Source of the DNA: Delphinus delphis
Taxonomy: Eukaryota > Chordata > Mammalia > Artiodactyla > Delphinidae
Direction: 5' to 3'
NCBI RefSeq assembly: GCF_949987515.2
Contig: NW_027192658.1
Location: 3,596,001-3,660,000 of the forward strand
Length of the DNA stretch: 64,000 nt
Shown here piece after piece: positions 1 through 53,688 of this stretch. A program made the translations under genes and the position numbers. A model generated the notes under the pieces. It saw only the letters and a list, made by a program, of their open reading frames with translations. It ran no database searches and was not told where the DNA came from. Numbering within the stretch: the first letter of the stretch is position 1; every line of letters begins with the position of its first letter.

Positions 1-1579
1 ATTTACTTACAAAGCAATATCACTCAGCAATGAAATCTGTGTCATCAGGCCCTTAGCAGCACAATGAGTGGATTCAGGTATGATGATTCTAACTGAAGTA
101 AGTCACACAGAAAAAGAAACATCATAAGATATCAGTAATACACGGAATGTAAACTTGGCTACACAGGAACTGAATTACAGAACAGAACAGGGTCTCAAAT
201 TTAGAAAACCAACTTATGCTTGCTTAAGGGGAAAGGTGAGTTGGGGTGCTGCATAAAACCAGAGATTGAAATGAGCACAGATAAAGTTCCTTAAGTCAAA
301 TATGGAATAGACAAGAGCTACTCCTTGCTCAACGAAATGGACTCAACACCGCATATTAAACGCCTAAGAATGTACCTGACTAGTAAGTATCTTAAAACCT
401 ATGGATTGCTATGTCTCCGAAAGAGAATCAAGCATGTGTACAGGGGCATAAACGCAGCAGTGATAGGATTGGAGAGGTTCGGTGAGCAAATGAAGACCCT
501 TTGAAGTCATATTGCATGGTACCCATTACACGGGTCTTAACTCTCCAGGTTTAAGGTATTCTTCCTTCAGCTAAAACATGCATGTGGAACCCAAGTATGA
601 TCAACCATGTGAACGGGAGACGTGTTCAAATATGTCTCAGTTGTCCTCCCCTGGTACTCGGGTGCAACATTCCAGACGCTTTACTAACATTCTCCCCACT
701 TGGAGAGTCAGTGCCTTTAACCTCCTGTTTGGCCCAGTTTGCCATTTCTGCGGAAGATGAACAGGAATAGCGAGAACCAATGAGAGGCTAGCTGGAGGTG
801 TCTGGACGGGCAAATTTAACTCTCATTTCCCACCAGGAAGAGGAAATAACCAAAGGCTCAGCGTGCCGTGCCGGAACCAGATTAGGGCCTGAAGCCATCC
901 TGCGGTGTTGCGGCCAGGTCACAAGAAAGCGAGTTGAAGAAAGGAGCTCAGGGGCACTGTAATTCACAAACCTGCAGAGTTATAAATGACAGCTATCGTC
1001 CAAAAATAGACTGAAGTAAGGCTGCCAAGAGGACTTGAAAGCGGGGCAGAATTGCAGGAAACCGATTTCAGGAGGTAGACTGGAATTGCATTGAAAGCAT
1101 AGGAAAAGAGGCAGAACGTCCACAATGATGCACTTGGCCTAAAAGGGCGTATGCGTTTTTTCCTGAATATATTCAGGAAAAAACGCATACGCCCTTTTTG
1201 GCCAACCAAGCAATCTTGCAAAGGAAATCTGAACTACAATGAAGTCTCACTTCCCCCCGGTCAAAAGGGCCATCTGAAAAAAGTGTAAAATCCAGAAAGG
1301 CAGGACAGGCCATGGAGAACTGGGAGCCTTGTTATGCTGATGGGCGGGATGTAAATTGCCAACAACCACTCGGGAGAAGTGTATGGTGTTTCCTGAAACA
1401 TCTAAAAAACAAAGCAACAGAACCTAGGGCACTTCCACTTATGGTCCTATAGCTTAGGGAAATTAAAATCAAAAAGACACAGCCACCCCAAAGTTTGGAA
1501 CGGCTCTGTTTACAAGAACCTCGTTTACAGTACAAGTTCAACATCGCAGAAAGTGAAAAATGGATAAAGAAGTTGTGGT
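1..1579 (+). repeat. Satellite monomer M1 (type A)
   Basis: It is 1579 bp long with a type A 5' segment. The palindrome at 1134-1205 has one mismatch (ggcct on the left). It carries the rare variants ttgccatttctgc and aagcaatcttgc (common form aagcaagcttgc). Its partner is M19. Confidence 0.9.
460..1133. other. Unassigned middle part of the monomer, no gene seen
   Basis: This stretch of M1, repeated in every monomer, matches no gene, RNA or transposon that I recognise. It contains several CpG sites (for example in ctgcggtgttgcggcc) and is where many copy-specific variants fall. Short open frames of 60-62 codons on the plus strand near 578-770 recur in only part of the monomers and are broken by single-base changes in the others, so they are not treated as genes. 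Confidence 0.6.
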
Positions 1580-1840
1580 ATTTACTTACAAAGCAATATC
1601 ACTCAGCAATGAAATCTGTGTCATCAGGCCCTTAGCAGCACAATGAGTGGATTCAGGTATGATGATTCTAACTGAAGTAAGTCACACAGAAAAAGAAACA
1701 TCATAAGATATCAGTAATACACGGAATGTAAACTTGGCTACACAGGAACTGAATTACAGAACAGAACAGGGTCTCAAATTTAGAAAACCAACTTATGCTT
1801 GCTTAAGGGGAAAGGTGAGTTGGGGTGCTGCATAAAACCA
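1215..1840 (+). mobile_element. Decayed LINE-1 fragment (ORF2 end plus 3' UTR), recurring in every monomer
   Basis: Read on the plus strand across the M1/M2 boundary, this segment follows the 3' end of a mammalian L1. At 1558-1614 one frame reads KWIKKLWYLLTKQYHSAMK, close to the WIKKMWYIYTMEYYSA motif near the end of L1 ORF2. Upstream, the DNA follows the ORF2 order: tacaatgaagtctcac, ggccatctgaaaaa, gatgtaaattgccaac, gtatggtgtttcctg, atcaaaaagacaca, ccccaaagttt. Downstream, gaagtaagtcacacag, aagatatcag, aacttggctacacaggaac and aaaggggaaagg-like steps follow the 3' UTR of artiodactyl/cetacean L1. Frameshifts and stops make it non-coding. The alignment is from memory. The same segment recurs about every 1579 bp to the window end. 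Confidence 0.8.
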
Positions 1841-3157
1841 GAGATTGAAATGAGCAGATATAAAGTTCCTTAAGCCAAATATGGAATAGACAAGAGCTAC
1901 TCCTTGCTCAACGAAATGGACTCAACACCGCATATTAAACGCCTAAGAATGTACCTGACTAGTAAGTATCGTAAAACCTATGGATTGCTATGTCTCCGAA
2001 AGAGAATCAAGCGTGTGTACAGGGGCATAAACGCAGCAGTGATAGGATTGGAGATGTTCGGTGAGCAAATGAAGACCCTTTGAAGTCATATTGCATGGTA
2101 CCCATTCCACAGGTTTCAAATACCCAGGTTTAAGGTATTCTTCCTTCAGCTAAAACATGCATGTAGAACCTAGAGTATGATCAACCATGTGATCGGGAGA
2201 CGTGTTCAAATATGTCTCAATTTTCGTACCCTGGTACTCGGGTGCAACATTCCAGACGCTTTACTAACACTCTCCCCACTTGGAGAGTCAGCGCCTTTAA
2301 CCTCCTGTTTGGCCCAGTTTGCAATTTCTGCGGAAGATGAACAGGAATAGCGAGAACCAATGAGAGACTAGCTGGAGGTGTCTGGACGGGCAAATTTAAC
2401 TCTCATTTCCCACCAGGAAGAGGAATTAACCAAAGGCTCAGCGTGCCGTGCCGGAACCAGATTAGGGCCTGAAGCCATCCTGCGGTGTTGCGGCCACGTC
2501 ACAAGAAAGCGAGTTGAAGAAAGGAGCTCAGGGGCACTGTAATTCACAAACCTGCAGAGTTATAAATGACAGCTATCGTCCAAAAATAGACTGAAGTAAG
2601 GCTGCCAAGAGGACTTGAAAGCGGGGCAGAATTGCAAGAAACCGATTTCAGGAGGTAGACTGGAATTGCATTGAAAGCATAGGAAAAGAGGCAGAACGTC
2701 CACAATGATGCACTTGGCCAAAAAGGGCGTATGCGTTTTTTCCTGAATATATTCAGGAAAAAACGCATACGCCCTTTTTGGCCAACCAAGCAAGCTTGCA
2801 AAGGAAATCTGCACTACAATGAAGTCTCACTTCCCCCCGGTCAAAAGGGCCATCTGAAAAAAGTGTAAAATCCAGAAAGGCAACAGGCCATTGAGAACTG
2901 GGAGCCTTGTTATGCTGATGGGCGGGATGTAAATTGCCAACAGACACTTGGGAGAAGTGTATGGTGTTTCCTGAAACATCTAAAAAACAAAGCAACAGAG
3001 CCTAGGGCACTGCCACTTATGGTCCTATAGCTTAGGGAAATTAAAATCAAAAAGACACAGCCACCCCAAAGTTTGGGACGCCTCTGTTTACAAGAACCTC
3101 GTTTACAGTACAAGTTCAGCATCGCAGAAAGTGAAAAATGGATAAAGAAGTTGTGGT
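1580..3157 (+). repeat. Satellite monomer M2 (type A)
   Basis: It is 1578 bp long with a perfect palindrome at 2714-2785. It shows gagcagatata near 1852 in place of gagcacagata, atgttcgg in place of aggttcgg, tgtagaacc, and a gcaacaggccattgag 3' part. Its partner is M20. Confidence 0.9.
2714..2785. repeat. 72-bp perfect palindrome (reference copy, in M2)
   Basis: The two 36-base arms are exact reverse complements with no spacer. The outer edge is ttggccaaaaaggg on the left and ccctttttggccaa on the right, and the centre is gaatatattc at 2745-2754. The same structure lies about 1134 bp into every complete monomer. It is perfect in M2-M6, M13, M15-M18, M20, M22, M23, M26, M31, M33-M36 and M38-M40, and has one or two mismatches in the other 18. 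As DNA it could extrude a cruciform; as RNA it would fold into a long hairpin. It lies within about 30 bp of the upstream edge of the L1-derived part. Confidence 0.95.
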
Positions 3158-4735
3158 ATTTACTTACAAAGCAATATCACTCAGCAATGAAATCTGTGTC
3201 ATCAGGCCCTTAGCAGCACAATGAGTGGATTCAGGTATGATGATTCTAACTGAAATAAGTCACACAGAAAAGAAACATCATAAGATATCAGTAATACACG
3301 GAATGTAAACTTGGCTACACAGGAACTGAATTACAGAACAGAACAGGGTCTCAAATTTAGAAAACCAACTTAGGCTTGCTTAAGGGTAAAGGTGAGTTGG
3401 GGTTCTACATAAAACCAGAGATTGAAATGAGCACAGATAAAGTTCCTTAAGTCAAATATGGAATAGACAAGAGCTACTCCTTGCTCAACGAAATGGACTC
3501 AACACCGCATATTAAACGCCTAAGAATGTACCTGACTAGTAAGTATCGTAAAACCTATGTATTGCTATGTCTCCAAAAGAGAATCAAGCATGTGTACAGG
3601 GGCATAAACGCAGCAGTGATAGGATTGGAGAGGTTCGGTGAGCAAATGAAGACCCTTTGAAGTCATATTGCATGGTACCCATTCCACGGGTCTCAACTCT
3701 CCAGGTTTAAGGTATTCTTCCTTCAGCTAAAACATGCATGTGGAACCCAAGTATGATCAACCATGTGAACGGGAGACGTGTTCAAATATGTCTCAGTTTT
3801 CCTCCCCTGGTACTCGGGTGCAACATTCCAGACGCTTTACTAACACTCTCCCCACTTGGAGAGTCAGCGCCTTTAACCTCCTGTTTGGCCCAGTTTGCAA
3901 TTTCTGCGGAAGATGAACAGGAATAGTGAGAACCAATGAGAGACTAGCTGGAGGTGTCTGGACGGGCAAATTTAACTCTCATTTCCCACCAGGAAGAGGA
4001 ATTAACCAAAGGCTCAGCATGCCGGGCCGGAACCAGATTAGGGCCTGAAGCCATCCTGCGGTGTTGCGGCCAGGTCACAAGAAAGCGAGTTGAAGAAAGG
4101 AGCTCAGGGGCACTGTAATTCACAAACCTGCAGAGTTATAAATGACAGCTATCGTCCAAAAATAGACTGAAGTAAGGCTGCCAAGAGGACTTGAAAGCGG
4201 GGCAGAATTGCAAGAAACCGATTTCAGGAGGTAGACTGGAATTGCATTGAAAGCATAGGAAAAGAGGCAGAACGTCCACAATGATGCACTTGGCCAAAAA
4301 GGGCGTATGCGTTTTTTCCTGAATATATTCAGGAAAAAACGCATACGCCCTTTTTGGCCAACCAAGCAAGCTTGCAAAGGAAATCTGCACTACAATGAAG
4401 TCTCACTTCCCCCCGGTCAAAAGGGCCATCTGAAAAAAGTGTAAAATCCAGAAAGGCAGGACAGGCCATGGACAACTGGGAGCCTTGTTATGCTGATGGG
4501 CGGGATGTAAATTGCCAACAACCACTCGGGAGAAGTGTATGGTGTTTCCTGAAACATCTAAAAAACAAAGCAACAGAACCTAGGGCACTTCCACTTATGG
4601 TCCTATAGCTTAGGGAAATTAAAATCAAAAAGACACAGCCACCCCAAAGTTTGGAACGGCTCTGTTTACAAGAACCTCGTTTACAGTACAAGTTCAACAT
4701 CGCAGAAAGTGAAAAATGGATAAAGAAGTTGTGGT
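3158..4735 (+). repeat. Satellite monomer M3 (type A)
   Basis: It is 1578 bp long with a perfect palindrome at 4290-4361. It lacks one A in cacagaaaagaaac, and has ggttctacat and the atagtgagaacc change. Its partner is M21. Confidence 0.9.
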
Positions 4736-6314
4736 ATTTACTTACAAAGCAATATCACTCAGCAATGAAATCTGTGTCATCAGGCCCTTAGCAGCACAAT
4801 GAGTGGATTCAGGTATGATGATTCTAACTGAAGTAAGTCACACAGAAAAAGAAACATCATAAGATATCAGTAATACACGGAATGTAAACTTGGCTACACA
4901 GGAACTGAATTACAGAACAGAACAGGGTCTCAAATTTAGAAAACCAACTTATGCTTGCTTAAGGGTAAAGGTGAGTTGGGGTGCTGCATAAAACCAGAGA
5001 TTGAAATGAGCACAGATAAAGTTCCTTAAGCCAAATATGGAATAGACAAGAGCTACTCCTTGCTCAACGAAATGGACTCAACACCGCATATTAAACGCCT
5101 AAGAATGTACCTGACTAGTAAGTATCTTAAAACCTATGGATTGCTATGTCTCCGAAAGAGAATCAAGCATGTGTACAGGGGCATAAACGCAGCAGTGATA
5201 GGATTGGAGAGGTTCGGTGAGCAAATGAAGACCCTTTGAAGTCATATTGCATGGTACCCATTACACGGGTCTTAACTCTCCAGGTTTAAGGTATTCTTCC
5301 TTCAGCTAAAACATGCATGTGGAACCCAAGTATGATCAACCATGTGAACGGGAGACGTGTTCAAATATGTCTCAGTTTTCCTCCCCTGGTACTCGGGTGC
5401 AACATTCCAGACGCTTTACTAACACTCTCCCCACTTGGAGAGTCAGCGCCTTTAACCTCCTGTTTGGCCCAGTTTGCAATTTCTGCGGAAGATGAACAGG
5501 AATAGCGAGAACCAATGAGAGGCTAGCTGGAGGTGTCTGGACGGGCAAATTTAACTCTCATTTCCCACCAGGAAGAGGAAATAACCAAAGGCTCAGCGTG
5601 CCGTGCTGGAACCAGATTAGGGCCTGAAGCCATCCTGCGGTGTTGCGGCCAGGTCACAAGAAAGCAAGTTGAAGAAAGGAGCTCAGGGGCACTGTAATTC
5701 ACAAACCTGCAGATTTATAAATGACAGCTATCGTCCAAAAATAGACTGAAGTAAGGCTGCCAAGAGGACTTGAAAGCGGGGCAGAATTGCAGGAAACCGA
5801 TTTCAGGAGGTAGACTGGAATTGCATTGAAAGCATAGGAAAAGAGGCAGAACGTCCACAATGATGCACTTGGCCAAAAAGGGCGTATGCGTTTTTTCCTG
5901 AATATATTCAGGAAAAAACGCATACGCCCTTTTTGGCCAACCAAGCAAGCTTGCAAAGGAAATCTGCACTACAATGAAGTCTCACTTCCCCCCGGTCAAA
6001 AGGGCCATCTGAAAAAAGTGTAAAATCCAGAAAGGCAGGACAGGCCATGGAGAACTGGGAGCCTTGTTATGCTGATGGGCGGGATGTAAATTGCCAACAG
6101 ACACTCGGGAGAAGTGTATGGTGTTTCCTGAAACATCAAAAAAACAAAGCAACAGAGCCTAGGGCACTGCCACTTATGGTCCTATAGCTTAGGGAAATTA
6201 AAATCAAAAAGACACAGCCACCCCAAAGTTTGGGACGCCTCTGTTTACAAGAACCTCGTTTACAGTACAAGTTCAACATCGCAGAAAGTGAAAAATGGAT
6301 AAAGAAGTTGTGGT
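4736..6314 (+). repeat. Satellite monomer M4 (type A)
   Basis: It is 1579 bp long with a perfect palindrome at 5869-5940. It carries aagcaagttg (a CpG-type change), cagatttata and acatcaaaaaaac. Its partner is M22. Confidence 0.9.
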
Positions 6315-7894
6315 ATTTACTTACAAAGCAATATCACTCAGCAATGAAATCTGTGTCATCAGGCCCTTAGCAGCACAATGAGTGGATTCAGGTATGATGA
6401 TTCTAACTGAAATAAGTCACACAGAAAAAGAAACATCATAAGATATCAGTAATACACGGAATGTAAACTTGGCTACACAGGAACTGAATTACAGAACAGA
6501 ACAGGGTCTCCAATTTAGAAAACCAACTTATGCTTGCTTAAGGGGAAAGGTGAGTTGGGGTGCTGCATAAAACCAGAGATTGAAATGAGCACAGATAAAG
6601 TTCCTTAAGTCAAATATGGAATAGACAAGAGCTACTCCTTGCTCAACGAAATGGACTCAACACCGCATATTAAACGCCTAAGAATGTACCTGACTAGTAA
6701 GTATCGTAAAACCTATGGATTGCTATGTCTCCGAAAGAGAATCAAGCATGTGTACAGGGGCATAAACGCAGCAGTGATAGGATTGGAGAGGTTCGGTGAG
6801 CAAATGAAGACCCTTTGAAGTCATATTGCATGGTACCCATTCCACGGGTTTCAACTACCCAGGTTTTAGGTATTCTTCCTTCAGCTAAAACATGCATGTG
6901 GAACCCAGAGTATGATCAACCATGTGATCGGGAGACGTGTTCAAATATGTGTCAGTTTTCCTCCCCTGGTACTCGGGTGCAACATTCCAGACGCCTTACT
7001 AACTCTCTCCCCACTTGGAGAGTCAGCGCCTTTAACCTCCTGTTTGGCACAGTTTGCAATTTCTGCGGAAGATGAACAGGAATAGCGAGAACCAATGAGA
7101 GGCTAGCTGGAGGTGTCTGGACGGGCAAATTTAACTCTCATTTCCCACCAGGAAGAGGAATTAACCAAAGGCTCAGCGTGCCATGCCGGAACCAGATTAG
7201 GGCCTGAAGCCATCCTGCGGTGTTGCGGCCAGCTCAAAAGAAAGCGAGTTGAAGAAAGGAGCTCAGGGGCACTGTAATTCACAAACCTGCAGAGTTATAA
7301 ATGACAGCTATCGTCCAAAAATAGACTGAAGTAAGGCTGCCAAGAGGACTTGAAAGCGGGGCAGAATTGCAGGAAACCGATTTCAGGAGGTAGACTGGAA
7401 TTGCATTGAAAGCATAGGAAAAGAGGCAGAACGTCCACAATGATGCACTTGGCCAAAAAGGGCGTATGCGTGTTTTCCTGAATATATTCAGGAAAACACG
7501 CATACGCCCTTTTTGGCCAACCAAGCAAGCTTGCAAAGGAAATCTGCACTGCAATGAAGTCTCACTTCCCCCCGGTCAAAAGGGCCATCTGAAAAAAGTG
7601 TAAAATCCAGAAAGGCAGGACAGGCCATGGAGAACTGGGAGCCTTGTTATGCTGATGGGCGGGATGTAAATTGCCAACAACCACTCGGGAGAAGTGTATG
7701 GTGTTTCCTGAAACATCTAAAAAACAAAGCAACAGAACCTAGGGCACTTCCACTTATGGTCCTATAGCTTAGGGAAATTAAAATCAAAAAGACACAGCCA
7801 CCCCAAAGTTTGGAACGGCTCTGTTTACAAGAACCTCATTTACAGTACAAGTTCAACATCGCAGAAAGTGAAAAATGGATAAAGAAGTTGTGGT
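6315..7894 (+). repeat. Satellite monomer M5 (type A)
   Basis: It is 1580 bp long. The palindrome at 7449-7520 is perfect with both arms changed. It carries atgtgtcag, ctaactctctcc, tttggcacag, the gcaatg marker after the palindrome and cctcatttac. Its partner M23 looks identical by eye. Confidence 0.9.
7449..7520. repeat. Palindrome with matched changes in both arms (M5)
   Basis: The left arm reads gcgtgttttcc and the right arm ggaaaacacgc, where the common form has gcgttttttcc and ggaaaaaacgc. Both arms changed together, so the palindrome stays perfect over 72 bp. The same paired state occurs at 9029-9100, 35874-35945 and 40612-40683. Confidence 0.9.
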
Positions 7895-9474
7895 ATTCAC
7901 TTACAAAGCAATATCACTCAGCAATGAAATCTGTGTCATCAGTCCCTTAGCAGCACAATGAGTGGATTCAGGTATGATGATTCTAACTGAAATAAGTCAC
8001 ACAGAAAAAGAAACATCATAAGATATCAGTAATACACGGAATGGAAACTTGGCTACACAGGAACTGAATTACAGAACAGAACAGGGTCTCAAATTTAGAA
8101 AAACAACTTATGCTTGCTTAAGGGTAACGGTGAGTTGGGGTGCTGCATAAAACCAGAGATTGAAATGAGCACAGATAAAGTTCCTTAAGCCAAATATGGA
8201 ATAGACAAGAGCTACTCCTTGCTCAACGAAATGGACTCAACACCGCATATTAAACGCCTAAGAATGTACCTGACTTGTAAGTATCTTAAAACCTATGGAT
8301 TGCTATGTCTCCGAAAGAGAATCAAGCATGAGTACAGGGGCATAAACGCAGCAGTGATAGGATTGGAGAGGTGCGGTGAGCAAATGAAGACCCTTTGAAG
8401 TCATATTGCATGGTACCCATTCCACGGGTTTCAACTACAGAGGTTTAAGGTATTCTTCCTTCAGCTAAAACATGCATGTGGAACCTAGAGTATGATCAAC
8501 CATGTGATCGGGAGACGTGTTCAAATATGTCTCAGTTTTCGTACCCTGGTACTCGGGTGCAACATTCCAGACGCTTTACTAACACTCTCCCCACTTGGAG
8601 CGTCAGTCCCTTTAACATCCTGTTTGGCCCAGTTTGCAATTTCTGCGGAAGATGAACAGGAATAGCGAGAACCAATGAGAGGCTAGCTGGAGGTGTCTGG
8701 ACGGGCAAATTTAACTCTCATTTCCCACCAGGAAGAGGAAATAACCAAAGGCTCAGCGTGCCATGCCGGAACCATATTAGGGCCTGAAGCCATCCTGCGG
8801 TGTTGCGGCCAGCTCAAAAGAAAGCGAGTTGAAGAAAGGAGCTCAGGGGCACTGTAATTCACAAACCTGCAGAGTTATAAATGACAGCTATCGTCCACAA
8901 ATAGACTGAAGTAAGGCTGCCAAGAGGACTTGAAAGCGGGGCAGAATTGCAGGAAACCGATTTCAGGAGGTAGACTGGAATTGCATTGAAAGCATAGGAA
9001 AAGAGGCAGAACGTCCACAATGATGCACTTGGCCAAAAAGGGCGTATGCGTGTTTTCCTGAATATATTCAGGAAAACACGCATACGCCCTTTTTGGCCAA
9101 CCAAGCAAGCTTGCAAAGGAAATCTGCACTGCAATGAAGTCTCACTTCCCCCCGGTCAAAAGGGCCATCTGAAAAAAGTGTAAAATCCAGAAAGGCAGGA
9201 CAGGCCATGGAGAACTGGGAGCCTTGTTATGCTGATGGGCGGGATGTAAATTGCCAACAACCACTCGGGAGAAGTGTATGGTGTTTCCTGAAACATCTAA
9301 AAAACAAAGCAACAGAACCTAGGGCACTTCCACTTATGGTCCTATAGCTTAGGGAAATTAAAATCAAAAAGACACAGCCACCCCAAAGTTTGGGACGCCT
9401 CTGGTTACAAGAACCTCGTTTACAGTACAAGTTCAACATCGCAGAAAGTGAAAAATGGATAAAGAAGTTGTGGT
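7895..9474 (+). repeat. Satellite monomer M6 (type B, mosaic)
   Basis: It is 1580 bp long with a type B 5' segment (attcac, agtccc, acttgtaag, gtgcgg). The palindrome at 9029-9100 has both arms changed. It has M5-like sequence from the palindrome to about 9340, then the gggacgcctctgg ending of the M7 group. Its positional partner M24 lacks the M5-like tract. Confidence 0.9.
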
Positions 9475-11053
9475 ATTTACTTACAAAGCAATATCACTCA
9501 GCAATGAAATCTGTGTCATCAGGCCCTTAGCAGCACAATGAGTGGATTCAGGTATGATGATTCTAACTGAAATAAGTCACACAGAAAAAGAAACATCATA
9601 AGATATCAGTAATACACGGAATGGAAACTTGGCTACACAGGAACTGAATTACAGAACAGAACAGGGTCTCAAATTTAGAAAAACAACTTATGCTTGCTTA
9701 AGAGTAACGGTGAGTTGGGGTGCTGCATAAAACCAGAGATTGAAATGAGCACAGATAAAGTTCCTTAAGTCAAATATGGAATAGACAAGAGCTACTCCTT
9801 GCTCAACGAAATGGACTCAACACCGCATATTAAACGCCTAAGAATGTACCTGACTAGTAAGTATCGTAAAACCTATGGATTGCTATGTCTCCGAAAGAGA
9901 ATCAAGCATGTGTACAGGGGCATAAACGCAGCAGTGATAGGATTGGAGAGGTGCGGTGAGCAAATGAAGACCCTTTGAAGTCATATTGCATGGTACCCAT
10001 TCCACGGGTCTCAACTCTCCAGGTTTAAGGTATTCTTCCTTCAGCTAAAACATGCATGTGGAACCCAAGTATGATCAACCATGTGAACGGGAGACGTGTT
10101 CAAATATGTCTCAGTTTTCCTCCCCTGGTACTCGGGTGCAACATTCCAGATGCTTTACTAACACTCTCCCCACTTGGAGAGTCAGTGCCTTTAACCTCCT
10201 GTTTGGCCCAGTTTGCAATTTCTGCGGAAGATGAACAGGAATAGCGAGAACCAATGAGAGGCTAGCTGGAGGTGTCTGGACGGGCAAATTTAACTCTCAT
10301 TTCCCACCAGGAAGAGGAAATAACCAAAGGCTCAGCGTGCCGTACCGGAACCAGATTAGGGCCTGAAGCCATCCTGCGGTGTTGCGGCCAGCTCAAAAGA
10401 AAGCGAGTTGAAGAAAGGAGCTCAGGGGCACTGTAATTCACAAACCTGCAGAGTTATAAATGACAGCTATTGTCCAAAAATAGACTGAAGTAAGGCTGCC
10501 AAGAGGACTTGAAAGCGGGGCAGAATTGCAGGAAACCGATTTCAGGAGGTAGACTGGAATTGCATTGAAAGCATAGGAAAAGAGGCAGAACGTCCACAAT
10601 GATGCACTTGGCCAAAAAGGGCGTATGCATGTTTTCCTGAATATATTCAGGAAAAAACGCATACGCCCTTTTTGGCCAACCAAGCAAGCTTGCAAAGGAA
10701 ATCTGCACTACAATGAAGTCTCACTTCCCCCCGGTCAAAAGGGCCATCTGAAAAAAGTGTAAAATCCAGAAAGGCAGGACAGGCCATGGAGAACTGGGAG
10801 CCTTGTTATGCTGATGGGCGGGATGTAAATTGCCAACAACCACTCGGGAGAAGTGTATGGTGTTTCCTGAAACATCTAAAAAACAAAGCAACAGAGCCTA
10901 GGGCACTGCCACTTATGGTCCTATAGCTTAGGGAAATTAAAATCAAAAAGACACAGCCACCCCAAAGTTTGGGACGCCTCTGGTTACAAGAACCTCGTTT
11001 ACAGTACAAGTTCAACATCGCAGAAAGTGAAAAATGGATAAAGAAGTTGTGGT
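9475..11053 (+). repeat. Satellite monomer M7 (type A with a type B patch)
   Basis: It is 1579 bp long. It starts as type A, switches to type B markers (aatggaaac, aaaaac, agagtaacgg) near 9622-9712, returns to actagtaag, and has gtgcgg near 9953. The palindrome at 10608-10679 has two mismatches. Its positional partner M25 lacks the type B patch. Confidence 0.9.
10608..10679. repeat. Palindrome with left-arm variant only (M7)
   Basis: The left arm reads gcatgttttcc but the right arm keeps the common ggaaaaaacgc, giving two mismatches. The same half-changed form is at 37454-37525, 39033-39104 and 42191-42262. The left arm looks like the M5 form with a CpG-type G to A change. Confidence 0.9.
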
Positions 11054-41056: not shown

Positions 41057-42636
41057 ATTCACTTACAAAGCAATATCACTCAGCAATGAAATCTGTGTCA
41101 TCAGTCCCTTAGCAGCACAATGAGTGGATTCAGGTATGATGATTCTAACTGAAATAAGTCACACAGAAAAAGAAACATCATAAGATATCAGTAATACACG
41201 GAATGGAAACTTGGCTACACAGGAACTGAATTACAGAACAGAACAGGGTCTCAAATTTAGAAAAACAACTTATGCTTGCTTAAGAGTAACGGTGAGTTGG
41301 GGTGCTGCATAAAACCAGAGATTGAAATGAGCACAGATAAAGTTCCTTAAGCCAAATATGGAATAGACAAGAGCTACTCCTTGCTCAACGAAATGGACTC
41401 AACACCGCATATTAAACGCCTAAGAATGTACCTGACTTGTAAGTATCTTAAAACCTATGGATTGCTATGTCTCCGAAAGAGAATCAAGCATGTGTACAGG
41501 GGCATAAACGCAGCAGTGATAGGATTGGAGAGGTGCGGTGAGCAAATGAAGACCCTTTGAAGTCATATTGCATGGTACCCATTCCACGGGTTTCAACTAC
41601 AGAGGTTTAAGGTATTCTTCCCTCAGCTAAAACATGCATGTGGAACCTAGAGTATGATCAACCATGTGATCGGGAGACGTGTTCAAATATGTCTCAGTTT
41701 TCGTACCCTGGTACTCGGGTGCAACATTCCAGACGCTTTACTAACACTCTCCCCACTTGGAGCGTCAGTCCCTTTAACATCCTGTTTGGCCCAGTTTGCA
41801 ATTTCTGCGGAAGATGAACAGGAATAGCGAGAACCAATGAGAGGCTAGCTGGAGGTGTCTGGACGGGCAAATTTAACTCTCATTTCCCACCAGGAAGAGG
41901 AATTAACCAAAGGCTCAGCGTGCCATGCCGGAACCATATTAGGGCCTGAAGCCATCCTGCGGTGTTGCGGCCAGCTCAAAAGAAAGCGAGTTGAAGAAAG
42001 GAGCTCAGGGGCACTGTAATTCACAAACCTGCAGAGTTATAAATGACAGCTATCGTCCAAAAATAGACTGAAGTAAGGCTGCCAAGAGGACTTGAAAGCG
42101 GGGCAGAATTGCAGGAAACCGATTTCAGGAGGTAGACTGGAATTGCATTGAAAGCATAGGAAAAGAGGCAGAACGTCCACAATGATGCACTTGGCCAAAA
42201 AGGGCGTATGCATGTTTTCCTGAATATATTCAGGAAAAAACGCATACGCCCTTTTTGGCCAACCAAGCAAGCTTGCAAAGGAAATCTGCACTACAATGAA
42301 GTCTCACTTCCCCCCGGTCAAAAGGGCCATCTGAAAAAAGTGTAAAATCCAGAAAGGCAGGACAGGCCATGGAGAACTGGGAGCCTTGTTATGCTGATGG
42401 GCGGGATGTAAATTGCCAACAACCACTCGGGAGAAGTGTATGGTGTTTCCTGAAACATCTAAAAAACAAAGCAACAGAGCCTAGGGCACTGCCACTTATG
42501 GTCCTATAGCTTAGGGAAATTAAAATCAAAAAGACACAGCCACCCCAAAGTTTGGGACGCCTCTGGTTACAAGAACATCGTTTACAGTACAAGTTCAACA
42601 TCGCAGAAAGTGAAAAATGGATAAAGAAGTTGTGGT
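41057..42636 (+). repeat. Satellite monomer M27 (type B)
   Basis: It is 1580 bp long. The palindrome at 42191-42262 has two mismatches. The body is like M24 (gagcgtcag, taacatcc, accatattag) but with cttccctcag and catgtgtac. It has the private change gaacatcg near 42,573. Confidence 0.9.
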
Positions 42637-44214
42637 ATTTACTTACAAAGCAATATCACTCAGCAATGAAATCTGTGTCATCAGGCCCTTAGCAGCACAA
42701 TGAGTGGTTTCAGGTATGATGATTCTAACTGAAATAAGTCACACAGAAAAAGAAACATCATAAGATATCAGTAATACACGGAATGTAAACTTGGCTACAC
42801 AGGAACTGAATTACAGAACAGAACAGGGTCTCAAATTTAGAAAACCAACTTATGCTTGCTTAAGGGTAAAGGTGAGTTGGGGTGCTGCATAAAACCAGAG
42901 ATTGAAATGAGCACAGATAAAGTTCCTTAAGCCAAATATGGAATAGACAAGAGCTACTCCTTGCTCAACGAAATGGACTCAACACCCCATATTAAACGCC
43001 TAAGAATGTTCCTGACTAGTAAGTATCTTAAAACCTATAGATTGCTATGTCTCCGAAAGAGAATCAAGCATGTGTACAGGGGCATAATCGCAGCAGTGAT
43101 AGGATTGGAGAGGTTCGGTGAGCAAATGAAGACCCTTTGAAGTCATATTGCATGGTACCCATTCCACGGGTTTCAACTACCCAGGTTTAAGGTATTCTTC
43201 CCTCAGCTAAAACATGCATGTGGAACCTAGAGTATGATCAACCATGTGATCGGGAGACGTGTTCAAATATGTCTCAGTTTTCGTACCCTGGTACTCGGGT
43301 GCAACATTCCAGACGCTTTCCTAACACTCTCCCCACTTGGAGATTCAGTCCCTTTAACCTCCTGTTTGGCCCAGTTTGCAATTTCTGTGGAAGATGAACA
43401 GGAATAGCAAGAACCAATGAGAGGCTAGCTGGAGGTGTCTGGACGGGCAAATTTAACTCTCATTTCCCACCAGGAAGAGGAATTAACCAAAGGCTCAGCA
43501 TGCCGGGCCGGAACCAGATTAGGGCCTGAAGCCATCCTGCGGTGTTGCGGCCAGCTCAAAAGAAAGCGAGTTGAAGAAAGGAGCTCAGGGGCACTGTAAT
43601 TCACAAACCTGCAGAGTTATAAATGACAGCTATCGTCCAAAAATAGACTGAAGTAAGGCTGCCAAGAGGACTTGAAAGCGGGGCAGAATTGCAGGAAACC
43701 GATTTCAGGAGGTAGACTGGAATTGCATTGAAAGCATAGGAAAAGAGGCAGAACGTCCACAATGATGCACTTGGCCAAAAAGGGCGTATGCGTTTTTTCC
43801 TGAATATATTCAGGAAAAAACGCATATGCCCTTTTTGGCCAACCAAGCAAGCTTGCAAAGGAAATCTGCACTACAATGAAGTCTCACTTCCCCCCGGCCA
43901 AAAGGGCCATCTGAAAAAAGTGTAAAATCCAGAAAGGCAACAGGCCATTGAGAACTGGGAGCCTTGTTATGCTGATGGGCGGGATGTAAATTGCCAACAG
44001 ACACTTGGGAGAAGTGTATGGTGTTTCCTGAAACATCTAAAAAACAAAGCAACAGAGCCTAGGGCACTGCCACTTATGGTCCTATAGCTTAGGGAAATTA
44101 AAATCAAAAAGACACAGCCACCCCAAAGTTTGGAACGGCTCTGTTTACAAGAACCTCGTTTACAGTACAAGTTCAACATCGCAGAAAGTGAAAAATGGAT
44201 AAAGAAGTTGTGGT
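42637..44214 (+). repeat. Satellite monomer M28 (type A 5' part)
   Basis: It is 1578 bp long. The palindrome at 43771-43842 has one mismatch (catatg). It carries gtggtttcagg, aatgttcc, cctatagatt, ataatcgcag and tttcctaac. Its 3' part matches M9. Confidence 0.9.
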
Positions 44215-45794
44215 ATTCACTTACAAAGCAATATCACTCAGCAATGAAATCTGTGTCATCAGTCCCTTAGCAGCACAATGAGTGGATTCAGGTATGATGA
44301 TTCTAACTGAAATAAGTCACACAGAAAAAGAAACATCATAAGATATCAGTAATACACGGAATGGAAACTTGGCTACACAGGAACTGAATTACAGAACAGA
44401 ACAGGGCCTCAAATTTAGAAAAACAACTTATGCTTGCTTAAGAGTAACGGTGAGTTGGGGTGCTGCATAAAACCAGAGATTGAAATGAGCACAGATAAAG
44501 TTCCTTAAGCCAAATATGGAATAGACAAGAGCTACTCCTTGCTCAACGAAATGGACTCAACACCGCATATTAAACGCCTAAGAATGTACCTGACTTGTAA
44601 GTATCTTAAAACCTATGGATTGCTATGTCTCCGAAAGAGAATCCAGCATGTGTACAGGGGCATAAACGCAGCAGTGATAGGATTGGAGAGGTGCGGTGAG
44701 CAAATGAAGACCCTTTGAAGTCATATTGCATGGTACCCATTCCACGGGTTTCAACTACAGAGGTTTAAGGTATTCTTCCTTCAGCTAAAACATGCATGTG
44801 GAACCTAGAGTATGATCAACCATGTGAACGGGAGACGTGTTCAAATATGTCTCAGTTTTCCTCCCCTGGTACTCGGGTGCAACATTCCAGACGCTTTACT
44901 AACACTCTCCCCACTTGGAGAGTCAGTGCCTTTAACCTCCTGTTTGGCCCAGTTTGCAATTTCTGTGGAAGATGAACAGGAATAGCGAGAACCAATGAGA
45001 GGCTAGCTGGAGGTGTCTGGACGGGCAAATTTAACTCTCATTTCCCACCAGGAAGAGGAATTAACCAAAGGCTCAGCATGCCGGGCCGGAACCAGATTAG
45101 GGCCTGAAGCCATCCTGCGGTGTTGCGGCCAGGTCACAAGAAAGCGAGTTGAAGAAAGGAGCTCAGGGGCACTGTAATTCACAAACCTGCAGAGTTATAA
45201 ATGACAGCTATCGTCCAAAAATAGACTGAAGTAAGGCTGCCAAGAGGACTTGAAAGCGGGGCAGAATTGCAGGAAACCGATTTCAGGAGGTAGACTGGAA
45301 TTGCATTGAAAGCATAGGAAAAGAGGCAGAACGTCCACAATGATGCACTTGGCCAAAAAGGGCGTATGCGTTTTCTCCTGAATATATTCAGGAAAAAACG
45401 CATACGCCCTTTTTGGCCAACCAAGCAAGCTTGCAAAGGAAATCTGCACTACAATGAAGTCTCACTTCCCCCCGGCCAAAAGGGCCATCTGAAAAAAGTG
45501 TAAAATCCAGAAAGGCAGGACAGGCCATGGAGAACTGGGAGCCTTGTTATGCTGATGGGCGGGATGTAAATTGCCAACAGACACTCGGGAGAAGTGTATG
45601 GTGTTTCCTGAAACATCTAAAAAACAAAGCAACAGAGCCTAGGGCACTGCCACTTATGGTCCTATAGCTTAGGGAAATTAAAATCAAAAAGACACAGCCA
45701 CCCCAAAGTTTGGAACGGCTCTGTTTACAAGAACCTCGTTTACAGTACAAGTTCAACATCGCAGAAAGTGAAAAATGGATAAAGAAGTTGTGGT
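44215..45794 (+). repeat. Satellite monomer M29 (type B)
   Basis: It is 1580 bp long. The palindrome at 45349-45420 has one mismatch (tctcc). It has ggcctc and aatccagcatg, but acattccagacg and ccaaagtttgg, so it lacks the M10/M12 rare variants. M30 is an almost identical tandem copy. Confidence 0.9.
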
Positions 45795-47374
45795 ATTCAC
45801 TTACAAAGCAATATCACTCAGCAATGAAATCTGTGTCATCAGTCCCTTAGCAGCACAATGAGTGGATTCAGGTATGATGATTCTAACTGAAATAAGTCAC
45901 ACAGAAAAAGAAACATCATAAGATATCAGTAATACACGGAATGGAAACTTGGCTACACAGGAACTGAATTACAGAACAGAACAGGGCCTCAAATTTAGAA
46001 AAACAACTTATGCTTGCTTAAGAGTAACGGTGAGTTGGGGTGCTGCATAAAACCAGAGATTGAAATGAGCACAGATAAAGTTCCTTAAGCCAAATATGGA
46101 ATAGACAAGAGCTACTCCTTGCTCAACGAAATGGACTCAACACCGCATATTAAACGCCTAAGAATGTACCTGACTTGTAAGTATCTTAAAACCTATGGAT
46201 TGCTATGTCTCCGAAAGAGAATCCAGCATGTGTACAGGGGCATAAACGCAGCAGTGATAGGATTGGAGAGGTGCGGTGAGCAAATGAAGACCCTTTGAAG
46301 TCATATTGCATGGTACCCATTCCACGGGTTTCAACTACAGAGGTTTAAGGTATTCTTCCTTCAGCTAAAACATGCATGTGGAACCTAGAGTATGATCAAC
46401 CATGTGAACGGGAGACGTGTTCAAATATGTCTCAGTTTTCCTCCCCTGGTACTCGGGTGCAACATTCCAGACGCTTTACTAACACTCTCCCCACTTGGAG
46501 AGTCAGTGCCTTTAACCTCCTGTTTGGCCCAGTTTGCAATTTCTGTGGAAGATGAACAGGAATAGCGAGAACCAATGAGAGGCTAGCTGGAGGTGTCTGG
46601 ACGGGCAAATTTAACTCTCATTTCCCACCAGGAAGAGGAATTAACCAAAGGCTCAGCATGCCGGGCCGGAACCAGATTAGGGCCTGAAGCCATCCTGCGG
46701 TGTTGCGGCCAGGTCACAAGAAAGCGAGTTGAAGAAAGGAGCTCAGGGGCACTGTAATTCACAAACCTGCAGAGTTATAAATGACAGCTATCGTCCAAAA
46801 ATAGACTGAAGTAAGGCTGCCAAGAGGACTTGAAAGCGGGGCAGAATTGCAGGAAACCGATTTCAGGAGGTAGACTGGAATTGCATTGAAAGCATAGGAA
46901 AAGAGGCAGAACGTCCACAATGATGCACTTGGCCAAAAAGGGCGTATGCGTTTTCTCCTGAATATATTCAGGAAAAAACGCATACGCCCTTTTTGGCCAA
47001 CCAAGCAAGCTTGCAAAGGAAATCTGCACTACAATGAAGTCTCACTTCCCCCCGGCCAAAAGGGCCATCTGAAAAAAGTGTAAAATCCAGAAAGGCAGGA
47101 CAGGCCATGGAGAACTGGGAGCCTTGTTATGCTGATGGGCGGGATGTAAATTGCCAACAGACACTCGGGAGAAGTGTATGGTGTTTCCTGAAACATCTAA
47201 AAAACAAAGCAACAGAGCCTAGGGCACTGCCACTTATGGTCCTATAGCTTAGGGAAATTAAAATCAAAAAGACACAGCCACCCCAATGTTTGGAACGGCT
47301 CTGTTTACAAGAACCTCGTTTACAGTACAAGTTCAACATCGCCGAAAGTGAAAAATGGATAAAGAAGTTGTGGT
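45795..47374 (+). repeat. Satellite monomer M30 (type B)
   Basis: It is 1580 bp long. The palindrome at 46929-47000 has one mismatch (tctcc). It is nearly identical to M29 until its end, where it has ccaatgtttgg and catcgccgaaag as in M10 and M12. Confidence 0.9.
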
Positions 47375-48953
47375 ATTCACTTACAAAGCAATATCACTCA
47401 GCAATGAAATCTGTGTCATCAGTCCCTTAGCAGCACAATGAGTGGATTCAGGTATGATGATTCTAACTGAAATAAGTCACACAGAAAAAGAAACATCATA
47501 AGATATCAGTAATACACGGAATGGAAACTTGGCTACACAGGAACTGAATTACAGAACAGAACAGGGTCTCAAATTTAGAAAAACAACTTATGCTTGCTTA
47601 AGAGTAACGGTGAGTTGGGGTGCTGCATAAAACCAGAGATTGAAATGAGCACAGATAAAGTTCTTTAAGCCAAATATGGAATAGACAAGAGCTACTCCTT
47701 GCTCAACGAAATGGACTCAACACCGCATATTAAACGCCTAAGAATGTACCTGACTTGTAAGTATCTTAAAACCTATGGATTGCTATGTCTCCGAAAGAGA
47801 ATCAAGCATGTGTACAGGGGCATAAACGCAGCAGTGATAGGATTGGAGAGGTGCGGTGAGCAAATGAAGACCCTTTGAAGTCATATTGCATGGTACCCAT
47901 TCCACGGGTTTCAACTACAGAGGTTTAAGGTATTCTTCCTTCAGCTAAAACATGCATGTGGAACCCAAGTATGATCAACCATGTGATCGGGAGACGTGTT
48001 CAAATATGTCTCAGTTTTCCTCCCCTGGTACTCGGGTGCAACATTCCAGACGCTTTACTAACACTCTCCCCACTTGGAGAGTCAGCGCCTTTAACCTCCT
48101 GTTTGGCCCAGTTTGCAATTTCTGCGGAAGATGAACAGGAATAGCGAGAACCAATGAGAGACTAGCTGGAGGTGTCTGGACGGGCAAATTTAAGTCTCAT
48201 TTCCCACCAGGAAGAGGAAATAACCAAAGGCTCAGCAGGCCGGGCCGGAACCAGATTAGGGCCTGAAGCCATCCTGCGGTGTTGCGGCCAGCTCACAAGA
48301 AAGCGAGTTGAAGAAAGGAGCTCAGGGGCACTGTAATTCACAAACCTGCAGAGTTATAAATGACAGCTATTGTCCAAAAATAGACTGAAGTAAGGCTGCC
48401 AAGAGGACTTGAAAGCGGGGCAGAATTGTAGGAACCCGATTTCAGGAGGTAGACTGGAATTGCATTGAAAGCATAGGAAAAGAGGCAGAACGTCCACAAT
48501 GATGCACTTGGCCAAAAAGGGCGTATGCGTTTTTTCCTGAATATATTCAGGAAAAAACGCATACGCCCTTTTTGGCCAACCAAGCAAGCTTGCAAAGGAA
48601 ATCTGCACTACAATGAAGTCTCACTTCCCCCCGGTCAAAAGGGCCATCTGAAAAAAGTGTAAAATCCAGAAAGGCAGGACAGGCCATGGAGAACTGGGAG
48701 CCTTGTTATGCTGATGGGCGGGATGTAAATTGCCAACAGACACTCGGGAGAAGTGTATGGTGTTTCCTGAAACATCTAAAAAACAAAGCAACAGAGCCTA
48801 GGGCACTGCCACTTATGGTCCTATAGCTTAGGGAAATTAAAATCAAAAAGACACAGCCACCCCAAAGTTTGGGACGCCTCTGTTTACAAGAACCTCGTTT
48901 ACAGTACAAGTTCAACATCGCAGAAAGTGAAAAATGGATAAAGAAGTTGTGGT
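47375..48953 (+). repeat. Satellite monomer M31 (pairs with M13)
   Basis: It is 1579 bp long with a perfect palindrome at 48508-48579. It differs from M13 by gttctttaag, by ggaacccg, and by lacking the extra base in aaaagggacc. Confidence 0.9.
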
Positions 48954-50531
48954 ATTTACTTACAAAGCAATATCACTCAGCAATGAAATCTGTGTCATCA
49001 GGCCCTTAGCAGCACAATGAGTGGATTCAGGTATGATGATTCTAACTGAAATAAGTCACACAGAAAAAGAAACATCATAAGATATCAGTAATACACGGAA
49101 TGTAAACTTGGCTACACAGGAACAGAATTAGAGAACAAACAGGGTCTCAAATTTAGAAAACCAACTTATGCTTGCTTAAGGGTAAAGGTGAGTTGGGGTG
49201 CTGCATAAAACCAGAGATTGAAATGAGCACAGATAAAGTTCCTTAAGTCAAATATGGAATAGACAAGAGCTACTCCTTGCTCAACGAAATGGACACAACA
49301 CCCCATATTAAACGCCTAAGAATGTACCTGACTAGTAAGTATCGTAAAACCTATGGATTGCTATGTCTCCAAAAGAGAATCAAGCATGTGTACAGGGGCA
49401 TAAACGCAGCAGTGATAGGATTGGAGAGGTTCGGTGAGCAAATGAAGACCCTTTGAAGTCATATTGCATGGTACCCATTACACGGGTCTCAACTCTACAG
49501 GTTTAAGGTATTCTTCCTTCAGCTAAAACATGCATGTGGAACCCAAGTATGATCAACCATGTGAACGGGAGACGTGTTCAAATATGTCTCAGTTTTCCTC
49601 CCCTGGTACTCGGGTGCAACATTCCAGACGCTTTACTAACACTCTCCCCACTTGGAGAGTCAGCGCCTTTAACCTCCTGTTTGGCCCAGTTTGCAATTTC
49701 TGCGGAAGATGAACAGGAATAGCGAGAACCAATGAGAGGCTAGCTGGAGGTGTCTGGACGGGCAAATTTAACTCTCATTTCCCACCAGGAAGAGGAAATA
49801 ACCAAAGGCTCAGCGTGCCGTACCGGAACCAGATTAGGGCCTGAAGCCATCCTGCGGTGTTGCGGCCAGCTCAAAAGAAAGCGAGTTGAAGAAAGGAGCT
49901 CAGGGGCACTGTAATTCACAAACCTGCAGAGTTATAAATGACAGCTATCGTCCAAAAATAGACTGAAGTAAGGCTGCCAAGAGGATTTGAAAGCGGGGCA
50001 GAATTGCAGGAAACCGATTTCAGGAGGTAGACTGGAATTGCATTGAAAGCATAGGAAAAGAGGCAGAACGTCCACAATGATGCACTTGGGCAAAAAGGGC
50101 GTATGCGTTTTTTCCTGAATATATTCAGGAAAAAACGCATACGCCCTTTTTGGCCAACCAAGCAAGCTTGCAAAGGAAATCTGCACTACAATGAAGTCTC
50201 ACTTCCCCCCGGTCAAAAGGGCCATCTGAAAAAAGTGTAAAATCCAGAAAGGCAGGACAGGCCATGGAGAACTGGGAGCCTTGTTATGCTGATGGGCGGG
50301 ATGTAAATTGCCAACAACCACTCGGGAGAAGTGTATGGTGTTTCCTGAAACATCTAAAAAACAAAGCAACAGAACCTAGGGCACTTCCACTTATGGTCCT
50401 ATAGCTTAGGGAAATTAAAATCAAAAAGACACAGCCACCCCAAAGTTTGGAACGGCTCTCTTTACAAGAACCTCGTTTACAGTACAAGTTCAACATCGCA
50501 GAAAGTGAAAAATGGATAAAGAAGTTGTGGT
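48954..50531 (+). repeat. Satellite monomer M32 (pairs with M14)
   Basis: It is 1578 bp long. The palindrome at 50086-50157 has the same ttgggc mismatch as M14. It has gaacgtcc where M14 has gaaagtcc. Confidence 0.9.
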
Positions 50532-52110
50532 ATTTACTTACAAAGCAATATCACTCAGCAATGAAATCTGTGTCATCAGGCCCTTAGCAGCACAATGAGT
50601 GGATTCAGGTATGATGATTCTAACTGAAATAAGTCACACAGAAAAAGAAACATCATAAGATATCAGTAATACACGGAATGGAAACTTGGCTACACAGGAA
50701 CTGAATTACAGAACAGAACAGGGTCTCAAATTTAGAAAACCAACTTATTCTTGCTTAAGGGTAAAGGTGAGTTGGGGTGCTGCATAAAACCAGAGATTGA
50801 AATGAGCACAGATAAAGTTCCTTAAGCCAAATATGGAATAGACAAGAGCTACTCCTTGCTCAACGAAATGGACTCAACACCCCATATTAAACGCCTAAGA
50901 ATGTACCTGACTAGTAAGTATCTTAAAACCTATGGATTGCTATGTCTCCGAAGGAGAATCAAGCATGTGTACAGGGGAATAAACGCAGCAGTGATAGGAT
51001 TGGAGAGGTTCGGTGAGCAAATGAAGACCCTTTGAAGTCATATTGCATGGTACCCATTCCACGGGTTTCAACTACCCAGGTTTAAGGTATTCTTCCTTCA
51101 GCTAAAACATGCATGTGGAACCTAGAGTATGATCAACCATGTGATCGGGAGACGTGTTCAAATATGTCTCAGTTTTCCTCCCCTGGTACTCGGGTGCAAC
51201 ATTCCAGACGCTTTCCTAACACTCTCCCCACTTGGAGAGTCAGTCCCTTTAACCTCCTGTTTGGCCCAGTTTGCAATTTCTGCGGAAGATGAACAGGAAT
51301 AGCGAGAACCAATGAGAGACTAGCTGGAGGTGTCTGGACGGGCAAATTTAACTCTCATTTCCCACCAGGAAGAGGAATTAACCAAAGGCTCAGCATGCCG
51401 GGCCGGAACCAGATTAGGGCCTGAAGCCATCCTGCGGTGTTGCGGCCAGGTCACAAGAAAGCGAGTTGAAGAAAGGAGCTCAGGGGCACTGTAATTCACA
51501 AACCTGCAGAGTTATAAATGAGAGCTATCATCCAAAAATAGACTGAAGTAAGGCTGCCAAGAGGACTTGAAAGCGGGGCAGAATTGCAGGAAACCGATTT
51601 CAGGAGGTAGACTGGAATTGCATTGAAAGCATAGGAAAAGAGGCAGAACGTCCACAATGATGCCACTTGGCCAAAAAGGGCGTATGCGTTTTTTCCTGAA
51701 TATATTCAGGAAAAAACGCATACGCCCTTTTTGGCCAACCAAGCAAGCTTGCAAAGGAAATCTGCACTACAATGAAGTCTCACTTCCCCCCGGCCAAAAG
51801 GGCCATCTGAAAAAAGTGTAAAATCCAGAAAGACAACAGGCCACTGAGAACTGGGAGCCTTGTTATGCTGATGGGCGGGATGAAAATTGCCAACAGACAC
51901 TTGTGAGAAGTGTATGGTGTTTCCTGAAACATCTAAAAAACAAAGCAACAGAGCCTAGGGCACTTCCACTTATGGTCCTATAGCTTAGGGAAATTAAAAT
52001 GAAAAAGACACAGCCACCTCAAAGTTTGGAACGGCTCTGTTTACAAGAACCTCGTTTACAGTACAAGTTCAACATCGCAGAAAGTGAAAAATGGATAAAG
52101 AAGTTGTCGT
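50532..52110 (+). repeat. Satellite monomer M33 (pairs with M15)
   Basis: It is 1579 bp long with a perfect palindrome at 51667-51738. It shares all the M15 markers (cgaaggagaatc, aggggaataaac, gagagctatcatcc) and the ttgtcg ending. Confidence 0.9.
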
Positions 52111-53688
52111 ATTTACTTACAAAGCAATATCACTCAGCAATGAAATCTGTGTCATCAGGCCCTTAGCAGCACAATGAGTGGATTCAGGTATGATGATTCT
52201 AACTGAAATAAGTCACACAGAAAAAGAAACATCATAAGATATCAGTAATACACGGAATGTAAACTTGGCTACACAGGAACTGAATTACAGAACAGAACAG
52301 GGTCTCAAATTTAGAAAACCAACTTATTCTTGCTTAAGGGTAAAGGTGAGTTGGGGTGCTGCATAAAACCAGAGATTGAAATGAGCACAGATAAAGTTCC
52401 TTAAGCCAAATATGGAATAGACAAGAGCTACTCCTTGCTCAACGAAATGGACTCAACACACCATATTAAACACCTAAGAATGTACCTTACTAGTAAGTAT
52501 CTTAAAACCTATGGATTGCTATGTCTCCGAAAGAGAATCAAGCATGTGTACAGGGGCATAAACGCAGCAGTGATAGGATTGGAGAGGTTCGGTGAGCAAA
52601 TGAAGACCCTTTGAAGTCATATTGCATGGTACCCATTCCAAGGGTTTCAACTATCCAGGTTTAAGGTATTCTTCCTTCAGCTAAAACATGCATGTGGAAC
52701 CTAGAGTATGATCAACCATGTGATCGGGAGACGTGTTCAAATATGTCTCAGTTTTCCTCCCCTGGTACTCGGGTGCAACATTCCAGAAGCTTTACTAACA
52801 CTCTCCCCACTTGGAGAGTCAGCGCCTTTAACCTCCTGTTTGGCCCAGTTTGCAATTTCTGCGGAAGATGAACAGGAATAGCGAGAACCAATGAGAGGCT
52901 AGCTGGAGGTGTCTGGACGGGCAAATTTAACTCTCATTTCCCACCAGGAAGAGGAATTAACCAAAGGCTCAGCATGCCGGGCCGGAACCAGATTAGGGCC
53001 TGAAGCCATCCTGCGGTGTTGCGGCCAGGTCACAAGAAAGCGAGTTGAAGAAAGGAGCTCAGGGGCACTGTAATTCACAAACCTGCAGAGTTATAAATGA
53101 CAGCTATCGTCCAAAAATAGACTGAAGTAAGGCTGCCAAGAGGACTTGAAAGCGGGGCAGAATTGCAGGAAACCGATTTCAGGAGGTAGACTGGAATTGC
53201 ATTGAAAGCATAGGAAAAGAGGCAGAACGTCCACAATGATGCACTTGGCCAAAAAGGGCGTATGCGTTTTTTCCTGAATATATTCAGGAAAAAACGCATA
53301 CGCCCTTTTTGGCCAACCAAGCAAGCTTGCAAAGGAAATCTGCACTACAATGAAGTCTCACTTCCCCCCGGCCAAAAGGGCCATCTGAAAAAAGTGTAAA
53401 ATCCAGAAAGGCAACAGGCCATTGAGAACTGGGAGCCTTGTTATGCTGATGGGCGGGATGTAAATTGCCAACAGACACTTGGGAGAAGTGTATTGTGTTT
53501 CCTGAAACATCTAAAAAACAAAGCAACAGAGCCTAGGGCACTTCCACTTATGGTCCTATAGCTTAGGGAAATTAAAATCAAAAAGACACAGCCACCCCAA
53601 AGTTTGGAACGGCTCTGTTTACAAGAACCTCGTTTACAGTACAAGTTCAACATCGCAGAAAGTGAAAAATGGATAAAGAAGTTGTCGT
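52111..53688 (+). repeat. Satellite monomer M34 (type A, block edge)
   Basis: It is 1578 bp long with a perfect palindrome at 53245-53316. The 5' part pairs with M16 up to 53,150. The 3' part (ggccaaaag, gcaacaggccattgag, ttgtcg ending) resembles M15/M33 instead. It has the private change gtattgtg near 53,494. Confidence 0.9.

Follow-up and report, generated by a model that had tools for sequence, protein, structure and literature searches.

The window analysed here, 64,000 nucleotides of contig NW_027192658.1 from Delphinus delphis (assembly GCF_949987515.2, positions 3,596,001 to 3,660,000 of the forward strand), is occupied over all 64,000 of its 64,000 bases by a single, uninterrupted head-to-tail satellite array, which comprises 40 full monomers (M1-M40) and a partial one (M41). 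Monomers lying 18 positions, or 28,425 bp, apart in this array correspond to one another in order over much of its length, and it is with this long-range order that the present analysis is concerned. The full monomers, with boundaries placed by local alignment to the first 150 bases, measure 1578, 1579 or 1580 bp (n=40), and one 61-base segment recurs 40 times, always on the + strand and with at most two mismatches per occurrence. Two full monomers differ on average at 36.5 columns (all 780 pairs), and 1375 of the 1582 columns of their alignment are invariant among the 40.

The start of the monomer appears to resemble the 3' end of an L1 element. Its period and this apparent likeness make the common cetacean satellite, with a monomer of 1,579 bp, the probable identity of the array. 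That satellite is the highly repetitive component of 1,579 bp in the killer whale to which the title of Widegren et al. (1985), as cited in PMC7763226, refers, and PMC9659126 describes a resemblance of it to the L1 3' end. The likeness to the array in D. delphis lies in the period (1,579 bp against 1578-1580 bp) and in the long head-to-tail arrangement, whereas the 28-kb ordered block found here is not mentioned in the portions of the literature covered. More generally, ordered blocks in this satellite are not reported in any of the titles, abstract openings and passages covered by the literature search, which did not reach its primary papers (Widegren 1985; Arnason and Widegren 1989; Gretarsdottir and Arnason 1992; Kapitonov 1998).

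The 28,425-bp correspondence and its limits

An ungapped self-comparison of the window, run over lags of 50 to 44,999, peaks at exactly 28,425 bp, where 59.7% of letters match; the length of one monomer, 1,579 bp, comes second (54.9%). At the level of monomers, M1-M8 differ from M19-M26 at 3, 2, 2, 1, 0, 9, 6 and 2 columns respectively, and M12-M15 from M30-M33 at 3, 3, 1 and 0. Differences at 0-9 of some 1580 columns are thus found in 12 of the first 16 pairs 18 monomers apart, and in 12 of all 22 such pairs, while the remaining four of the first 16 show 15-36 differences. The 758 pairs at every other lag differ on average at 37.1 columns (2.35%). Neighbouring monomers, which the sequence-only reading of this DNA had described as far more different from each other than the pairs 28,425 bp apart, do indeed differ at a mean of 33.9 columns (39 pairs).

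In the sequence as it stands the correspondence is genuine, and it goes far beyond what chance would produce. Only 19 of the 780 pairs show nine or fewer differences and 12 of these 19 lie at lag 18, while in 10,000 shuffles of the monomer order the largest number of such close pairs at any one lag was 7. Likewise, 49 alleles are each shared by exactly two full monomers out of 40, and for 43 of them these two form a lag-18 pair. Diagonal runs of eight monomers (n=528, lags 1-32) reach 25 differences in the best run at lag 18 and 187 in the best run elsewhere, and long-range order at any other lag was rejected on these grounds.

The match is not continuous (Table 1). A long left and a shorter right part, both differing by 0.1-0.2%, are separated by a 3.9-kb island in which M9/M27, M10/M28 and M11/M29 differ at 25, 36 and 27 columns, that is, in the range of unrelated monomers. 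The earlier claim that rare variants recur in the same order over more than 24 kb, with few differences per monomer, therefore holds for about 20.8 of the 24.7 kb, and fails over the island, where the difference is 2.2%. In the same way, 12 of the 15 monomers M1-M15 are closer to their partners in M19-M33 than to random monomers in the identity matrix, the three island pairs being the exceptions.

On its right side the match stops inside a monomer, at 24,727 in M16 and 53,151 in M34. M16 and M34 are identical over columns 362-1039 and diverge from column 1040 on, 14 of their 15 differences lying at column 1040 or beyond, and the position 53,150 given previously as the end of the ordered region is accordingly the last matching base. 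The other difference, at column 361, is an allele private to M34; for this reason, and because the upstream partner lies outside the window, it sets no left limit for a junction. Beyond the match end, M17/M35 and M18/M36 differ at 37 and 49 columns. A third copy at lag 18 beyond M36 was also considered and rejected, since M37-M40 differ from M19-M22 at 160 of 6,319 columns (2.5%). The window thus holds two ordered copies and not three or more, as had been noted from the sequence at the outset.

The nearest relative of M37 (56,845-58,424) among the 40 monomers is 39 differences away and M37 carries 13 singleton alleles, while M40 and M17 carry 10 and 9. These three may originate from another part of the array.

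Table 1. Features of the satellite array in the 64,000-nucleotide window
Feature	Positions	Strand	Evidence
Satellite array, M1-M40 and partial M41	1-64,000	+	Local-alignment boundaries; 61-base segment found 40 times
Copy 1, left matching part, M1 to M9 column 682	1-13,315	+	26 differences in 13,315 columns (0.195%) against 28,426-41,739
Copy 1, non-matching island, M9 column 683 to M11 column 1436	13,316-17,224	+	87 of 3,913 columns differ (2.22%) against 41,740-45,649; types B and C doubled (M9-M10, M11-M12)
Copy 1, right matching part, M11 column 1437 to M16 column 1039	17,225-24,726	+	8 differences in 7,502 columns (0.107%)
Match end in M16, putative duplication junction at or before 24,727	24,048-24,727	+	List of M16/M34 differences
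M16 3' end, M17 and M18, no counterpart at lag +18	24,727-28,425	+	100 of 3,699 columns differ (2.70%) against M34-M36
Copy 2, left matching part, M19 to M27 column 682	28,426-41,739	+	
Copy 2, non-matching island: M27 M24-like, M28 mosaic, M29 M30-like with other 3' end	41,740-45,649	+	Monomer differences; variable-site table
Copy 2, right matching part, M29 column 1437 to M34 column 1039	45,650-53,150	+	
M34 3' end to M41, no order found	53,151-64,000	+	Nearest relatives of M35-M40 at 18-39 differences; short painted tracts with changing lags
Candidate conversion tract, copy 2, M24 column 998 to M25 column 478	37,318-38,378	+	Mosaic painting
Alternative tract in M6 (copy 1)	8,776-9,393	+	Five sites, columns 1156-1436, of M5/M8 type
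Palindrome in M2	2,714-2,785		
Palindrome in M1	1,134-1,205		One arm mismatch

Proposed duplication and reshuffling of the block

It appears fairly probable that an 18-monomer block of 28,425 bp was duplicated once in tandem, by unequal exchange, in an otherwise unordered array. Two arrays lying 18 monomers out of step would have exchanged unequally, giving a tandem duplication in which copy 1 would start some 3.7 kb upstream of the window, while copy 2 would extend from the middle of M16 to the middle of M34. The 3.7 kb upstream of window base 1 is accordingly predicted to match 24,727-28,425. A tandem duplication with its junction in M16 predicts that the in-register match ends inside one monomer, with unrelated sequence beyond, and this is what is seen in M16. 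Moreover, all 40 full monomers measure 1578-1580 bp, so every junction in the window keeps monomer register, which is the mark of homology-driven exchange. The lag-18 identity, the place where it stops and the mosaic monomers are seen directly in the sequence. That the process was exchange rather than replication template switching, that it was a single event and that the assembly is correct are points which we infer. Each copy would since have been altered further, by exchanges involving one to three monomers and by at least one conversion tract no longer than about 1 kb, leaving the 3.9-kb island between the matching parts.

Such later changes can be followed in a mosaic painting, in which each monomer is represented as a mosaic of the others, the hidden state is the lag in whole monomers and only in-register switches are allowed, so that the painting itself says nothing about register. 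In the copy 1 island two monomer types, B and C, each occur twice, with 8 differences between the B monomers (M9/M11) and 2 between the C monomers (M10/M12). Among the 40 monomers, G at column 672 is found in M10 and M12 only, and both M9 and M11 carry C at column 751 and T at column 1436, where M28 has T and G. As these alleles are common to the copy 1 representatives of each type, they suggest, on few sites, that the B-C pair was duplicated in copy 1 later than the block itself.

The copy 2 island was rearranged in a different manner. M27 is a second M24-like monomer (4 differences), M28 is a mosaic and the C type is again doubled (M29/M30, 2 differences). M29 is of C type as far as column 1436, while the two diagnostic sites beyond, columns 1494 and 1550, carry B-type alleles that are present in other types too. 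The succession of M29 and a full C-type M30 is the trace expected of a one-monomer unequal exchange with the monomer before M29.

Outside the islands, M6/M24 and M7/M25 together account for 15 differing sites. In the painting, the sequence from M24 column 998 to M25 column 478 matches M7-M8, one monomer further on, with one mismatch in 1,061 bp. This stretch of copy 2 is likely to be an out-of-register conversion tract, which would account for 10 of the 15 differences. Alternatively, two shorter tracts in copy 1, one in M6 and one in M7, may be responsible. The former would cover five sites of M5/M8 type within columns 1156-1436, both flanks staying M6-like, and would be at least 280 and at most 618 bp long; the latter would likewise cover five sites, at columns 149-478.

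Short-range exchange is modestly supported, as monomers one to three positions apart within M1-M18 differ at a mean of 33.5 columns, a value as low being obtained in 0.4% of 5,000 shuffles. Changes private to one monomer, counted in M1-M8 and M12-M15 against M19-M26 and M30-M33, number 4 in copy 1 and 10 in copy 2, figures too small to mean much.

Several observations weigh against a single duplication followed by local reshuffling. Both copies span exactly 18 monomers across the altered island, which under independent local gains and losses is a coincidence. The ancestral block could apparently have had either 17 monomers, with one net gain in each copy, or 18, with events that cancelled out. 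The signals that date the duplication of the B-C pair conflict, since at columns 192 and 208 M10 carries the alleles of the copy 2 monomers M29 and M30 rather than those of M12, and over its whole length it is nearer to M30 (1 difference) than to M12 (2 differences). The correlation between distance and difference within M1-M18 is weak overall (0.13, p 0.077). Finally, the upstream flank lies outside the window.

Competing explanations for the two copies

The two copies might instead have been brought together by the assembly, if two haplotypes of a single locus, or sequences from two loci, had been placed one after the other; the second copy would then be an allele and not a true tandem copy. 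Such a join would have the same topology as an unequal exchange, and the difference of 0.1-0.2% in the matching parts is comparable to normal allelic variation in some cetaceans. Nor can the sequence common to both sides of the junction be measured within the window, the partner lying upstream. On the other hand, the copies are not one stretch placed twice, as private substitutions, single-base indels and the rearranged 3.9-kb island separate them. The match also ends sharply at column 1040, and an assembler would have needed to bridge a 2.7% difference beyond that point. On balance an artefact of this kind is regarded as rather unlikely. Less plausible by far is that the copies owe their likeness to ongoing conversion over 18 monomers and not to recent common origin. 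Conversion-like tracts do occur in the array, but those that could be placed measure about 0.3-1.3 kb against 13.3 kb for the longest matching part, and there is no evident reason why conversion should favour one 28-kb lag; this explanation is held to be highly improbable.

A different possibility is a true higher-order repeat, that is, a longer ordered array with the 18-monomer block as its unit, whose other copies would lie upstream and whose right edge would be seen in the window. Two colinear copies that differ by 0.1-0.2% in their matching parts, against about 2.35% among other monomer pairs, are in line with such a structure, and as the window starts inside a copy more copies may lie upstream. 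However, the third round fails at once, the two copies disagree over 3.9 kb in the interior of the unit, the tail from M35 to M41 shows no order and the order itself stops in the middle of a monomer. A higher-order repeat is therefore unlikely, and the broader proposition that at least one chromosome carries the common cetacean satellite as a true higher-order repeat, each unit comprising 18 long monomers and about 28.4 kb, with the window at its degrading edge, is quite unlikely. The sequence-only reading had considered duplication and a higher-order repeat to be equally likely. With two copies only, a mid-monomer stop, a failed third round and an altered interior, this balance is not upheld, and duplication is placed well ahead.

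Relation to known systems and further properties of the monomer

Ordered blocks of monomers are known in alpha satellite (PMC10153287). As in the higher-order repeats of primate alpha satellite described there, distinct monomers are repeated in order in the D. delphis array and the copies are far closer to each other than neighbouring monomers are. The array is unlike them in that it has two copies, an interrupted match and a 28-kb unit built of monomers of 1.58 kb rather than 171 bp.

Unequal crossing over is a general model for the duplication of blocks in tandem arrays. One large in-register tandem duplication followed by local reshuffling agrees with this model and departs from it in nothing of kind; the great length of the block in bases follows from that of the monomer. 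The array is a new example of block duplication in a long-monomer satellite, and as such represents expected satellite evolution and not a new kind of structure. Its value lies in providing a resolved example of how a satellite with kilobase monomers may evolve, with a large tandem duplication, later exchanges involving one to three monomers and a roughly 1-kb conversion tract, the order of some of these steps being partly readable from shared alleles. Such blocks would also be the raw material for the growth of a higher-order repeat. In addition, the window offers a test case for assembly checks in cetacean heterochromatin, in which a false haplotype join would look alike.

Searches for other known elements gave no matches within their scope. 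No Rfam family was matched at gathering scores in the first 6,400 of the 64,000 bases, and Tandem Repeats Finder, with a longest covered period of 500, returned no rows. The 17-bp consensus of the CENP-B box was not found on either strand, also when one mismatch was allowed. An exact scan with one 34-base segment of the monomer gave no matches in viral contigs and none in genome contigs.

The consensus monomer contains a perfect 72-bp palindrome at columns 1135-1206, with arms of 36 bp and no spacer. Folded as single-stranded DNA, the 76 bases at 2,712-2,787 in M2 give -43.3 kcal/mol (z -15.5). At columns 1158 and 1183, matching changes on both arms are found in M5, M6, M23 and M26 and a change on one arm only in M8, and other monomers carry unmatched changes in the arms. 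A role of the palindrome as a driver of the exchanges was considered and is not supported, as the breakpoint intervals that could be placed (columns 545-565, 565-683, 233-391, 402-429 and 1436-1494) do not gather at columns 1135-1206. The putative conversion tract, whether placed in M24 or in M6, does span it.

The variants of the 40 full monomers also have an unusual spectrum. In mammalian variation transitions usually outnumber transversions, whereas the opposite is seen here, with 134 transversions against 75 transitions among all variants, 52 against 25 among singletons and 123 against 52 outside CpG. This excess may stem from the way mutations arise, from repair that accompanies exchange or from faulty data.

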